NCBI RefSeq assembly: GCF_029203285.1
Contig: NZ_CP115669.1
Location: 1,612,001-1,676,000 of the forward strand
DNA: 64,000 bases
Direction of reading: 5' to 3'
Origin: Pseudomonas sp. PSE14
GTDB lineage: Bacteria; Pseudomonadota; Gammaproteobacteria; Pseudomonadales; Pseudomonadaceae
The translations under genes and the position numbers were made by a program. The notes beneath the pieces were generated by a model. That model did not search any database. It was not told the origin of the DNA and saw only the letters and a list, made by a program, of their open reading frames with translations. Shown one piece after another: positions 25,686 to 51,586 of the stretch (positions within the stretch are counted from its first letter, which is position 1; every line of letters begins with the position of its first letter).

Positions 25686-26054
25686 ATGAGCGCCCTGTTA
25701 CGCGAAAGCCCCGCAGCCGATGCCGTACTGGCCAAGGCGGTACTCACGGCGCGCGAACACCTGGCGATGACCCAGCAGGAGCTGGCGGCGATCGTGGGAG
25801 TGGAACGTAGCGCCGTCAGCCGCTGGAAGCAAGGCGGACTGCGGGTGGACAGCAAGACCGGTGAATTGGCCCTGCTGCTGGTGCGGGTCTATCGCGCGCT
25901 GTTCGCCCTGTTCGGCGGCAACCTGGAGGACATGCGCCACTTCCTGCGTACCGAGAACCGTCACTTGAACGGTGTGCCGCTGCAGTTGATGGAGCAGGTG
26001 CAGGGACTGGTGGCGGTGGTCGAGTACCTGGACGCCATCCGGGGCAAGGTCTGA
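25686..26054 (+). CDS. Xre/MbcA/ParS-type antitoxin
   Basis: A 122-residue protein with an N-terminal helix-turn-helix (about 26-52, TQQELAAIVGVERSAVSRWK) and a C-terminal DUF2384-like toxin-binding domain (about 60-120, with NLEDMRHFLRTENRHLNGVP, where the family usually has an xxLNxxP-type motif). The antitoxin binds the RES toxin and represses its own promoter. AGGAG lies 5-10 nt before the ATG. Its TGA directly abuts the toxin ATG, a standard TA layout. Confidence 0.88.
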   Translation: MSALLRESPAADAVLAKAVLTAREHLAMTQQELAAIVGVERSAVSRWKQGGLRVDSKTGELALLLVRVYRALFALFGGNLEDMRHFLRTENRHLNGVPLQLMEQVQGLVAVVEYLDAIRGKV

Positions 26055-26825
26055 ATGTCCTTCGAGACGGGCGCCCAGATCTGGGCACGGCATGCGCCGG
26101 AGTCGGTCGTCAGCCCCATTCGTGGACGCCTGGTGCGCCTGGTGGAAAGTCAGGGGCAGGTGGCCACGCTGCAACTGGTGGACACCCTGGCCGAGCAGGC
26201 ACTGCTTGAGGAGTTGCTGGAAACCAGCAAGCCGCATGTGCCGCCCCCCGCCGAGCACCTGCACTATCTATTGAAGACACCGTTTCGCTATCCACCGCTG
26301 CGTTGGGGCTCGCGCTTCGGCCGGCGGCATGAGCCGAGCCTGTTCTATGCGGCGCTGAAGCTGGATACGGCGATGGCGGAATCGGCTTTCTACCGCTACG
26401 TGCTGTGGGAGGGGATGAGTTCGCCGCCGCCAAGCGGGCGGATTCTCTCCGAACATGCGTCCTTCGAGGCGCGCTTCCAGGTGCAGCGCGGCGTGCGTTT
26501 GCAATTGCCGCCGTTCCGCGAGTACGAGCCGGCGCTGCGCGATCCGTCGGATTACCGCGTTGCCCAGGGGCTGGGCAGCGCCATGCGCGAGGCCGGGGTC
26601 GAGGCGTTCGAGTACCGCTCGGCGCGCTGCCCGCACGCTGGGGTGAACGTGGCGTTGTTCGCGCCGTCGGCCTTCACCGAGAAGCGTCCGCGCAACCTGA
26701 TGCCCTGGCTGTGCGAGACCACGGCGGAGTACGTCGCCTTCAAGCACGCCCAGGTGCCGGATACTCCGCGCCTGTTCCCGCGGGCTCAGTTCCTGGTGGA
26801 TGGGCACCTGCCGTATCCGGCCTGA
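26055..26825 (+). CDS. RES-domain toxin (NAD+-degrading)
   Basis: A 256-residue RES-domain protein. The residues that name the fold are visible: Arg in WGSRFG (about 93), Glu in AMAES (about 111) and Ser later in the domain. RES toxins studied in Pseudomonas putida, Photorhabdus and Mycobacterium consume NAD+ and stop growth. The antitoxin gene lies immediately upstream. At 256 residues it is somewhat longer than many RES toxins because of an N-terminal helical extension (about 1-75). It is intact, so the pair is probably active. Confidence 0.87.
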   Translation: MSFETGAQIWARHAPESVVSPIRGRLVRLVESQGQVATLQLVDTLAEQALLEELLETSKPHVPPPAEHLHYLLKTPFRYPPLRWGSRFGRRHEPSLFYAALKLDTAMAESAFYRYVLWEGMSSPPPSGRILSEHASFEARFQVQRGVRLQLPPFREYEPALRDPSDYRVAQGLGSAMREAGVEAFEYRSARCPHAGVNVALFAPSAFTEKRPRNLMPWLCETTAEYVAFKHAQVPDTPRLFPRAQFLVDGHLPYPA

Positions 26826-27111: not shown

Positions 27112-27378
27112 GACGGCTGATCCTCCCTCCATCGAATTCATACCGGATGATCCGGATGTCGGCGCGGGCCTCGCCTGGCTGATTCGATCGTCTTTCGCTT
27201 TCCACTCCGTACTTCTCTTTCCGCTGCCCTGAAACGGGGCGGTCGGCTGCTCCTTGGCGCGCACTTGTGCACAGTGCTGATGCGCGCTGTCAAGCCCCTG
27301 CAATATTGCATTTAGCCACTTGCCTGTTTCTCTTGCGTTTTTTAACTTATTGAAAAATAAAGAAAATCTTCGTTGGTG
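27112..27378. other. Intergenic region without a gene, upstream of rmuC
   Basis: The gap between 27111 and rmuC at 27588 is 476 nt. The first half shows no gene. From about 27320 it becomes A/T-rich and contains TTTTTTAAC and a perfect hairpin TTGGTGA-AAAAA-TCACCAA at 27373-27391, leading into the repeated module annotated separately. Confidence 0.6.
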
Positions 27379-27473
27379 AAAAAATCACCAATCTGTCATG
27401 CGCCCCCGTCTGACTGGGGGTGGGGCGCTTTTTCATCACGTTTTCCACTAAGTTATCCACAGCTTCTGTGGAT
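27379..27473 (+). repeat. Duplicated DnaA-box-containing intergenic module, copy 1
   Basis: Begins with AAAAAATCACCAATCTGTC (27379-27397), continues 55 nt and ends with TTATCCACAG at 27453 followed by CTTCT and GTGGAT. ATCCACAG/CTGTGGAT (27455-27462 and 27466-27473) is a perfect inverted repeat; TTATCCACA equals the DnaA-box consensus. A second copy at 51028-51122 aligns without gaps: 17/19 in the first block, about 28/55 between, and TTATCCACAG plus GTGGAT identical in position. Between the blocks this copy has a GC-rich stem followed by T5 (27400-27433). Role unknown. Confidence 0.7.
27400..27433 (+). terminator. Terminator-like stem with T5 inside module copy 1
   Basis: GCGCCCC pairs with GGGGCGC around a mispaired centre and is followed by TTTTT. 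It could end a short transcript that starts in the A/T-rich region upstream; the matching part of copy 2 lacks such a strong stem. Confidence 0.5.
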
Positions 27474-27587
27474 TGTCCCGAGCGCTTGCTCAGGAGCCCT
27501 GTTCCAGGGCCTTTACAGGTGACAAGGCGCCTCCGGGTGGCCGCTGTTAGTATTGCGCGATTGTTTGTCACACCCCCGGAGTGCCGC

Positions 27588-29066
27588 ATGCCCCTCGACC
27601 TGTCCGCCCTGTTGCTCGGTGCGCTCGCCGGCCTGTTGCCCATGGCGGCGCTGGCCTGGCGCCTGCAGTCGCAGCGTGTCGCCACGGAGCAGGAGGCGAC
27701 CCTGCTGCGTGAGCGCCTGGCCAACGCGCAGCTCGCCCAGGACGGCTTGTCGGCCCAGGCTGAGGCGGATCGCGAAGCTTTCCAGCGCCTGAGCAGCCGG
27801 CATGGTGAGTTGTCCGCCGAGTCCGCCGCGCTGCGCCGCGAGGTCGAGTTGGGCAAGCAGGAGCGCGAGCGCCTGGGCGCGGCGGAGCAGGACTGGCAGG
27901 CCGAGCGTGCGGACAAGGAAGCAGAGCTGCGGCGCCTGTCCGCCGAGCACGCGGCCTTGTCCGCCGAACTGCGCGAGCAGCAGGACAACCACCAGCAGCG
28001 CCTGGGTGATCTGCAATCGGCACGGGATGAGTTGCGTGCCCAGTTCGCCGAACTGGCCGGGAAGATCTTCGACGAGCGCGAGCAGCGCTTCGCCGAGTCC
28101 AGCCAGCAGCGTCTGGGGCAATTGCTTGATCCGCTGAAGGAGCGCATCCAGTCCTTCGAGAAGCGTGTGGAGGAGAGCTACCAGGCCGAGGCCCGCGAGC
28201 GTTTCTCCCTGACCAAGGAGCTGGAGCGCCTGCAGCAGCTGAACCTGCGCCTGGGCGAGGAAGCCACCAACCTGACCCGCGCGCTGAAAGGCCAGAAGAC
28301 CCAGGGCAACTGGGGCGAACTGGTGTTGGAGCGGGTGCTGGAGCACGCCGGGCTGGAGAAGGGCCGCGAGTACGAGACTCAGGTCAGCCTGCGGGCGCCG
28401 GATGGCGAGCGCTTCCAGCCCGACGTGCTGATCCGCTTGCCCGGCGACAAGCAGGTGGTGGTGGATGCCAAGGTCAGTCTGACCGCCTACCAGCAGTTCA
28501 TCGCCGCCGAGGACGAGGTGATCCGTCAGCAGGCGCTGAAGGCCCACGTGCTGTCCCTGCGTAACCATGTGAAGGGGCTTTCCGGCAAGGACTACCGGCG
28601 CCTGGATGGTCTGCACAGCCTCGACTTCGTGCTGCTGTTCATGCCGGTGGAAGCCGCCTTCTCGGCGGCGTTGCAGGCCGAGCCGAACCTGTTCCAGGAA
28701 GCCTTCGAGCGCAACATTGTGATCGTCAGCCCGACCACCTTGCTGGCGACGCTACGGGTGATCGACAGCCTGTGGCGTCAGGAGCGGCAGAACCAGAACG
28801 CCCGCGAGATCGCCGAGCGCGCCGGGGCGTTGTACGACAAGTTCGTGCTCTTCGTGCAGGACCTGGACGAGATGGGCACTCGCCTGCAGCAGTTGGACAA
28901 GACGTACGCGGCGGCGCGCAACAAGCTCTGTGAAGGGCGCGGCAATCTGATCAGCCGTGCCGAGCAGGTGAAGTTGCTGGGTGCGCGGGCCAGCAAGAAC
29001 CTGCCGACCGACTGGCTGGAGCGCGCGTTGAGTGATGATTCGCCGGTGGTGGAAGAGGGCAAGTAG
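27588..29066 (+). CDS. rmuC: DNA recombination protein RmuC
   Basis: A 492-residue protein. It has an N-terminal membrane helix (about 5-22), a long coiled coil rich in Glu/Arg/Gln (about 25-200), and the RmuC nuclease-like domain (about 215-440) with QGNWGELVLERVLEHAGLEKGREYE and VDAKVSLTAYQQF, the VDAK matching a PD-(D/E)xK-type core. RmuC limits recombination at inverted repeats in E. coli; its biochemistry is unclear. ATG 27588 has GGAG at 27578-27581; a 56-residue in-frame extension overlaps the DnaA-box module and is rejected. Confidence 0.93.
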   Translation: MPLDLSALLLGALAGLLPMAALAWRLQSQRVATEQEATLLRERLANAQLAQDGLSAQAEADREAFQRLSSRHGELSAESAALRREVELGKQERERLGAAEQDWQAERADKEAELRRLSAEHAALSAELREQQDNHQQRLGDLQSARDELRAQFAELAGKIFDEREQRFAESSQQRLGQLLDPLKERIQSFEKRVEESYQAEARERFSLTKELERLQQLNLRLGEEATNLTRALKGQKTQGNWGELVLERVLEHAGLEKGREYETQVSLRAPDGERFQPDVLIRLPGDKQVVVDAKVSLTAYQQFIAAEDEVIRQQALKAHVLSLRNHVKGLSGKDYRRLDGLHSLDFVLLFMPVEAAFSAALQAEPNLFQEAFERNIVIVSPTTLLATLRVIDSLWRQERQNQNAREIAERAGALYDKFVLFVQDLDEMGTRLQQLDKTYAAARNKLCEGRGNLISRAEQVKLLGARASKNLPTDWLERALSDDSPVVEEGK

Positions 29067-47423: not shown

Positions 47424-47471
47424 AAGGGCCGTCCCCGCTGGAACACCGGAAGGTGGTGAGGTCGTCCTCAC
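47424..47471 (-). ncRNA. Guanidine-II (mini-ykkC) riboswitch upstream of gdx
   Basis: On the minus strand two small hairpins with ACGR loops occur in tandem: GTGAGG-ACGA-CCTCAC (47456-47471, perfect stem) and GGGG-ACGG-CCCT (47425-47436). The linker is about 19 nt. This is the defining pattern of guanidine-II riboswitches, which free the ribosome site of exporters when guanidinium binds. The gdx start is 28 nt downstream of the second hairpin. Confidence 0.88.
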
Positions 47472-47497
47472 AATGTGCATTATTTTGCACAAATGCG

Positions 47498-50849: not shown

Positions 50850-51027
50850 GCGGGACCAGCTCTGGAACGGGAGGCTGACCCGAAGGTCTGTTTGAGGGTA
50901 GGCTGCCCCCTGTTGTTACGCTTATGCACATATTTGCCGCAGTTGCTCTGATGTCAGGGGCTTGACATCCAGGTGGCCATCGAATAGCCGCAACTGCATG
51001 ATTTTTAACGCATTTGTCAGGCTGGAT
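50850..51027. other. Intergenic region with inverted repeats upstream of the ykvA-like gene
   Basis: The gene-free gap runs from 50797 to 51166 (370 nt). After the fklB terminator it holds nested inverted repeats: GCAGTTGC (near 50939) against GCAACTGC (near 50989), and inside them GATGTCA/TGACATC (50950-50969), which overlaps a TTGACA at 50962-50967. A structured RNA or a regulator site is possible; no open reading frame is convincing. Confidence 0.55.
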
Positions 51028-51122
51028 AAAAAATCGCCTATCTGTCTGGAACCCTCATGGTTCGGGCCTTTGGGCGATGTTGAAGCTTTCTTTCAACAGA
51101 GTTATCCACAGTAAAGGTGGAT
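51028..51122 (+). repeat. Duplicated DnaA-box-containing intergenic module, copy 2
   Basis: Begins AAAAAATCGCCTATCTGTC (51028-51046) and after exactly 55 nt reaches TTATCCACAG (51102-51111), N5, GTGGAT. TTATCCAC/GTGGATAA (51102-51109 and 51117-51124) is a perfect inverted repeat; TGTTGAA/TTCAACA (51078-51098) forms a second hairpin just before. It aligns ungapped to copy 1 at 27379-27473. It lies 42 nt before the ykvA-like gene. Confidence 0.7.
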
Positions 51123-51166
51123 AACCTGAAGCATTCCCGTCTGAGTATTCCTATCGGGGTGAAGTG

Positions 51167-51586
51167 ATGAAAAAACCTCCGGGATTCGATCGCTACCTGG
51201 ACCTCGCCGGACGATTCCTGGCTCGTGGCCGGGTGCCGGCGTTGCTGTTCGCGGTGGCGCGCAAGAGCGGCCGTCTGAAGTTGGCCCGCAATGACCTGAA
51301 GCTGCTGCAGGAACTGCTGGTGGCCTGGGTGCGCGGTGATTATCGCGGTGTCAGTTCCCAGGCGCTGGTGTCCGTCGTGGCGGCGTTGCTGTATTTCCTG
51401 GCGCCGGTGGATCTGGTGCCCGACTGGCTGCTGGGTGTGGGGTTCCTCGATGACCTGGCGGTGCTGGCCTGGGTCGTGCGCCGTTGGCAGTCCGAGCTGG
51501 ATGCCTTCAAGGTGTGGCGGGACGGTCAGGGTATGGAAACCCGCGAGGCGCTCAAGCAACTGCCGGCGCCGGTTCAGCGCCGCTGA
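51167..51586 (+). CDS. YkvA/DUF1232-family membrane protein
   Basis: A 139-residue protein with a soluble N-terminus and the DUF1232 core (about 65-105), LLYFLAPVDLVPDWLLGVGFLDDLAVLAWVVRRW, the conserved PxDLxPD-x-GFLDD pattern. The function is unknown. GGGGTGAAG precedes ATG 51167 (GTG 51164 is an alternative). The last 13 nt overlap the 3' end of the convergent binding-protein gene. Confidence 0.85.
   Translation: MKKPPGFDRYLDLAGRFLARGRVPALLFAVARKSGRLKLARNDLKLLQELLVAWVRGDYRGVSSQALVSVVAALLYFLAPVDLVPDWLLGVGFLDDLAVLAWVVRRWQSELDAFKVWRDGQGMETREALKQLPAPVQRR

Follow-up and report, generated by a model that had tools for sequence, protein, structure and literature searches.

The window analysed here is a stretch of 64,000 nucleotides, positions 1,612,001-1,676,000 of the 5,977,163-bp single-contig genome of Pseudomonas sp. 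PSE14 (G000). It carries two related modules, which lie 23.6 kb apart and have the same orientation. The first (27343-27475) is located upstream of rmuC (27588-29066, + strand; Pfam PF02646, E 1.9e-108), the second (50991-51124) upstream of a gene for a YkvA/DUF1232 protein (51167-51586, + strand; Pfam PF06803, E 1e-11). They are referred to as the rmuC copy and the ykvA copy.

Anatomy of the two modules

An earlier note on this DNA had described two 19-mers (27379-27397 and 51028-51046) that agree at 17 of 19 bases, each followed by a gap of exactly 55 nt with about 28 gapless matches and then by TTATCCACAG-N5-GTGGAT, in front of rmuC and a YkvA-type gene. This description holds in full: the 19-mers have two differences, 28 of the 55 gap positions agree, and TTATCCACAG-N5-GTGGAT is present after the gap in both copies. 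In the first 43 nt of the gap, which lie 5′ of the DnaA boxes, 20 positions are identical, compared with 11.8 (sd 2.8) when one of the copies is shuffled. The note had estimated that about 95 bp are related. The relatedness is real but the extent was underestimated, as the module is longer: in each copy a third DnaA box is found 3 nt 5′ of TTATCCACA (12 bases further left), box I extends to 9 bases, and an IHF-like site is present further upstream.

The core of each module is a triple DnaA box with the layout 9-3-9-5-9, in which boxes III and II are direct and box I is inverted. The rmuC core reads TTTTCCACT aag TTATCCACA gcttc TGTGGATTG and consists of box III (27441-27449, + strand, 7/9 matches), box II (27453-27461, + strand, 9/9) and box I (27467-27475, - strand, 7/9). 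The ykvA core reads CTTTCAACA gag TTATCCACA gtaaa GGTGGATAA, with box III at 51090-51098 (+ strand, 6/9), box II at 51102-51110 (+ strand, 9/9) and box I at 51116-51124 (- strand, 8/9).

The IHF-like sites (27343-27355 and 50991-51003, both - strand; top strand TAACTTATTGAAA and CAACTGCATGATT) match 12 of 13 positions of WATCAANNNNTTR, which we take to be the IHF consensus and which is the basis of all IHF-like calls. They lie 19-20 nt 5′ of a Fis-like site and 23-24 nt 5′ of the 19-mer. The Fis-like site is GGTGAAAAAATCACC in the rmuC copy (27375-27389) and GGATAAAAAATCGCC in the ykvA copy (51024-51038), with two mismatches and one mismatch, respectively, to the consensus GnnYAnnnnnTRnnC as printed in PMC10380432; in the window copies, the Fis-like and IHF-like sites are consensus matches only. 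As the 19-mer starts at -74 (counted from the first base of box II), it represents most of the Fis-like site, which starts at -78, together with its downstream flank.

Within the window, this arrangement is confined to the two modules. When up to 3 mismatches are allowed, the inverted-box pattern is found there only, once per strand in each module; these 4 matches compare with a mean of 0.14 and a maximum of 2 in 100 window shuffles. The 19-mer pattern, also with up to 3 mismatches, is likewise restricted to the two modules (shuffle mean 0.02, maximum 1).

Two more three-box sites, which are not accompanied by the 19-mer, occur in the same genome: L001 1489-1523 (969124-969158, + strand) and L004 (5486636-5486670, - strand). 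Both recur in 4 other genus genomes, and an IHF-like match is seen by eye at the equal offset in L004. The 19-mer-like matches in the genome with 2-3 mismatches (8 of 10; reversed control 3) were rejected as being near chance and having no core, with one exception near dnaA. This sequence (L020, 5972154-5972172 of the genome) reads AAAAAATAGCCAATCGGTG, and is followed after about 80 nt by TTTCTGTGGATAACC. The contig ends about 5 kb further on, and on the circle the sequence is close to dnaA; it may be an origin-proximal relative of the distal site.

Conservation in genus, family and class

Conservation was analysed in the genus, in the family (taken as Pseudomonadaceae) and in the class (taken as Gammaproteobacteria in the GTDB sense). 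A strict pattern, consisting of the 19-mer core, a gap allowed to vary from 45 to 65 nt, and TTATCCACAG, occurs 38 times in 22 of the 25 genus genomes, and the gap is 55 nt in all 38 cases. Although box I is not part of this pattern, GTGGAT follows TTATCCACAG after exactly 5 nt in all 39 distinct strict matches (the 38 and one from another genus). The bare inverted repeat (exact TTATCCACAGN5GTGGAT) is found in every genus genome (25 of 25, 62 occurrences).

The 63 distinct sites that were gathered belong to an rmuC class (26), a ykvA class (24) and others (13). The earlier note would have been refuted by a search yielding chance matches only, or by a lack of conservation at orthologous loci. 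Instead, RmuC adjoins 26 of 26 rmuC-class sites and YkvA adjoins 24 of 24 ykvA-class sites, and the spacing is fixed. The pair lies on one strand, 19-25 kb apart, in 21 of the 25 genus genomes; among the remaining four, the sites are on different contigs in two and far apart in G012, while the exact repeat occurs only once in G018.

A sequence-only profile (R1) was built from 50 genus sites. At E<=0.1 it matches all 148 family genomes, 18 of which are from the training genus, and among the matches listed most are full length. At E<=0.001 it matches 180 of the 232 class genomes (two of them family members), with no match in the other 52. The palindrome TTATCCAC-N7-GTGGATAA is exact in 98 of the 232 class genomes (0 for the reversed-pattern control) and in its exact form absent from 134.

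RmuC or YkvA is encoded beside 29 of the 30 best-scoring family loci, a set that leans to close relatives, with 18 of the 30 from the training genus. Thirteen further family stretches are short (L242, L243, L247-L257); 5 of these reach RmuC or YkvA, and the other 8 show neither gene, many having too little flank to tell. Outside the family, neither RmuC nor YkvA was detected at E 1e-4 at any of 58 class-level loci (1.6-3.1 kb each). Thus, the element is not tied to rmuC or ykvA.

Fis-like and IHF-like sites at fixed distance

Class sites were chosen by the core palindrome alone, in order to avoid circular selection for the distal motif. There are at least 75 palindrome places outside the family, of which 74 were fetched (one near a contig end was omitted) and 72 passed the length filter. 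Counts refer to the 70 of these (49 genomes) that have a clear box III on one of their sides. They were oriented by the better box III, which inflates the figures for box III but not those for the distal sites.

At offset -78, the Fis consensus is exact in 20 of the 70 class sites (mean over all offsets 0.14) and has at most one mismatch in 40 (mean 0.9), while a near-consensus match at this offset is missing in 30. On the other strand, the IHF consensus is matched at -110 with at most one mismatch in 23 of the 70 sites (mean 0.29); all of these means include the peaks themselves. In genus and family, counting only sites with at least 5 matches in box III (n = 82), the Fis consensus is matched with at most one mismatch in 29 and with exactly two in 34. 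The IHF consensus is matched with at most one mismatch in 59 of these sites, a count that is inflated by taking the best of 7 offsets. As a prediction from consensus matches, the assignment to Fis holds well across the class and less well for the rmuC copy itself.

Comparison with DARS1, DARS2, datA and oriC of E. coli

The earlier note knew of no named element with such a layout, but the three boxes are arranged as in the core of DARS (DnaA-reactivating sequences). The review PMC5742627 describes a common core of three DnaA boxes with equal spacing and box I in opposite orientation; according to another review, boxes I and II in head-to-head orientation are essential for function. The same 9-3-9-5-9 layout with an inverted box I is seen in DARS1 (TAATACACA tgg TTATCCACA ggaat AGTGGATAA) and in DARS2 (TTCTTCACA act CTATCCACA gaaaa GGTGAATAA). 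The limits of DARS2 were taken from published deletion primers. The double boxes of both DARSs were taken from a ChIP-seq table, which includes them among the DnaA-bound regions of E. coli.

A layout scan (at least 5 matches per box and at least 21 in total) of 24,005 bases of E. coli, comprising the oriC, datA, DARS1 and DARS2 loci, found only the two DARSs; these loci, two of which overlap by about 0.5 kb, were picked for their known sites, and specificity refers to those bases alone. When the window was scanned at a total of at least 19, only the two modules were found, and there were none in 60 Markov-resampled windows.

Profile R1 aligns to DARS1 without gaps over model positions 8-97 (90 positions, 22.8-22.9 bits, E 8.5e-6 in 107 kb). 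It aligns to DARS2 over 65 positions (15.4 bits), and to datA over model positions 41-88 with 16.4 bits, which is slightly above DARS2 and covers the double box only. As datA outscores DARS2, the profile score fails to separate DARS from datA, and R1 was rejected as the sole classifier. It is the inverted box that separates them: at the place of box I, datA has 4 and oriC has 2 of 9 matches.

DARS1, located in the bioD/uvrB interval and given as 101 bp long in PMC5742627, resembles the modules by its gapless profile match, which includes CGCCAAT at the place of the 19-mer. It differs in these flanking sites: judged by eye, just 2 of the 6 positions that the Fis consensus specifies agree at -78, and the IHF-like match at -111 has two mismatches. 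DARS1 has been reported to be active in vitro without added factors.

DARS2 is located in the rppH/mutH interval. A consensus scan places IHF-like and Fis-like matches on the same side as its box III, and it is reported to be activated by IHF and Fis. Its length is given as 455 bp in PMC5742627, and it has additional DnaA boxes. The order is core-IHF-Fis in DARS2, whereas it is core-Fis-IHF within about 133 bp in the modules, and an IHF-like match of DARS2 is at -99, 11 bp nearer to the core than -110. As they differ from DARS2 in order and compactness, the modules represent a variant form of DARS if they belong to this kind. A further DnaA-box pair was noted in the E. coli DARS2 region (L081 3429-3474; R1 11.5 bits, small gaps).

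What datA shares with the modules is the double DnaA box with a 3-nt gap, and IHF, which is also described as part of datA. It differs by having no inverted box I and by being nearer to oriC. By layout and position, the modules do not match a cluster of the datA kind, where a head-to-head box at the place of box I is lacking and oriC is near. They are also not an origin lying beside dnaA, which is located at G000:C1:16-1527, 1.64 Mb away.

Chromosomal position and protein partners

The distance of both sites from dnaA is 0.51-0.64 of the half-genome in 10 genus genomes that consist of a single contig (three of these genomes have rounded lengths, and distances were measured from dnaA, not from the terminus). 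This includes G012, where the sites are on opposite sides of dnaA. In E. coli, the corresponding values from oriC are 0.66 for DARS1, 0.41 for DARS2 and 0.20 for datA. The modules are well away from oriC, as expected for DARS, and a position effect of DARS has been reported for E. coli. It may be that the position is kept only through conserved gene order.

The genome encodes DnaA, Hda, Fis, IHF-alpha and IHF-beta. The gene for the DnaA inactivator, hda (L271 167-871; 1600166-1600870 of the genome), precedes the rmuC element by about 39 kb. In 8 of the 10 single-contig genus genomes, an Hda-like match (DnaA family) is found 38-71 kb from the rmuC element; the distance is about 200 kb in G012, and in G005 the match is far off.

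Proposed function and alternatives

We consider it probable, from sequence and by analogy, that the two modules are DARS-type elements of a compact IHF-Fis-core form, which would release ADP from DnaA. This reading builds on what was observed: sequence anatomy, spacing, conservation, distance from dnaA and the presence of the partner genes. Among the possibilities offered by the earlier note, the sequence evidence, within its limits, supports a protein-binding regulatory element with DnaA boxes.

DnaA would occupy boxes III and II by cooperative binding, with another DnaA placed head-to-head on the inverted box I. If the analogy with E. coli holds, the ADP-DnaA of this complex would release its ADP, and the apo-DnaA would leave, bind ATP and raise the initiation capacity. 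Fis near -78 and IHF near -110 would bend the flank and gate the element by growth phase and cell cycle; such gating has been reported for E. coli DARS2. Binding of DnaA, Fis and IHF, release of ADP and an effect on initiation timing are predictions carried over from the E. coli work. Counting against the DARS reading, box III is weak in the window copies (6-7 of 9 matches), the Fis-like site of the rmuC copy has two mismatches, and 52 of the 232 class genomes have no R1 match.

The main rival, which we regard as improbable but which survives best, is that the boxes store DnaA or promote ATP hydrolysis, as in datA, and do not serve ADP release. The double box with gagTTATCCACAg is common to datA and oriC, R1 detects the double box of datA, and IHF belongs to datA too. 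On the other hand, an inverted box is lacking in datA and oriC at the place where 39 of 39 strict sites, all of them chosen without box I, have one, and the modules are at 0.51-0.64 of the half-genome, compared with 0.20 for datA. Box I and position have only weakened the case for a datA-like role.

It is clearly unlikely, in our view, that the modules exert DnaA-, Fis- and IHF-dependent promoter control of rmuC and ykvA, which would couple DNA repair or a DUF1232 protein to replication. The sites do lie upstream of these genes (26 of 26 rmuC-class sites, 24 of 24 ykvA-class sites, 29 of 30 for the best family loci), about 40 nt separate the ykvA copy from the start codon, and a TTGACA is found upstream of this copy. 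However, the distance to rmuC ranges from 97 to 703 nt, a crude scan scored no sigma-70-like promoter in either region, and 58 class-level loci outside the family have neither gene, all of which makes promoter control less likely. The first base of this TTGACA (50962-50967, + strand) is 29 nt 5′ of the IHF-like site in the ykvA copy, and by eye most ykvA-class sequences retain the motif. Given this, the element of the ykvA copy may sit in a transcribed leader.

A structured RNA, either an sRNA or a leader, is highly improbable. It is suggested by a hairpin followed by T's in the rmuC copy, a terminator-like stem (27404-27425, + strand) located in the filler that separates the Fis-like site from box III. 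When 18 of the 26 rmuC-class sequences are compared, 82.6% of the cells pair (reached by 1 of 500 shuffles), 7 cells have changed on both sides (5 of 500) and the covariation score is 0.183 (19 of 500); these 18 were hand-chosen, the omitted 8 being 3 near-duplicates and 5 without the stem by eye (L082, L084, L085, L088, L091). Yet the count of pairs changed on both sides is reached by 105 of 500 shuffles, the stem belongs to the variable filler, and by eye 5 of the 26 rmuC-class sequences do not have it. No terminator was scored inside the ykvA module, and the one in the rmuC region is close to the shuffle mean of 0.8. In Rfam 15 scans, run on the whole window and in relaxed form on the two sites, no match at either site reached gathering score, so that the small RNA family considered in the earlier note finds no support there. 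As the hairpin is not present in all rmuC-class sequences and is unscored in the ykvA copy, an RNA fails to explain the pair.

That the modules are remnants of an old interspersed repeat, as also considered in the note, can practically be dismissed: there are two copies in one orientation 23.6 kb apart, but equal spacing with diverged filler in genus, family and class, together with orthologous positions, argues for selection on the sites and not for recent copying. The pair may nevertheless go back to a functional element that was duplicated in ancient times.

DARS-type elements remain our preferred reading, and the comparison invites an evolutionary extension to which we give even chances. 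The compact IHF(-110)-Fis(-78)-triple-box arrangement would be the ancestral DARS of Gammaproteobacteria, with one to several copies per genome. DARS1, with degenerate Fis and IHF sites, and DARS2, with a rearranged and stretched flank, would be derived, while Pseudomonas would keep a linked pair that controls timing. As the same layout, often with Fis-like and IHF-like sites at fixed distance, occurs in many relatives, the corresponding control of replication timing may be of ancient origin and broadly distributed.

DARS as a kind of element is already known. The control of DnaA by DARS has been worked out in E. coli, a comparison of DARS2 covers seven E. coli-proximal species, and DARS-like sequences are said in a review to be conserved in many proteobacteria. 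No Pseudomonas DARS is described in the portions covered of the DARS literature (PMC4245941, PMC5742627, PMC4585315, PMC12371093, PMC11317965, PMC10380432, PMC8682772, PMC4285127, PMC10218098, PMC7858055), a set that includes neither Fujimitsu 2009 nor Sugiyama 2019. For this reason, and because of the proteobacterial DARS-like sequences mentioned in the review, we make no claim of priority. If the DARS reading is true, Pseudomonas has a pair of recharge sites which can be deleted and tested. The IHF-Fis-core geometry would then provide a simple search profile for DARSs in many genomes and would allow one to ask how the DARS pair of E. coli evolved.

Further features of the window

Upstream of the rmuC element, at 25686-26825 (+ strand), an Xre/MbcA/ParS-type antitoxin is followed by a RES-domain protein, likely an Xre-RES toxin-antitoxin pair. 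A Guanidine-II riboswitch (mini-ykkC) is found at 47424-47473 (- strand), above the Rfam gathering score.
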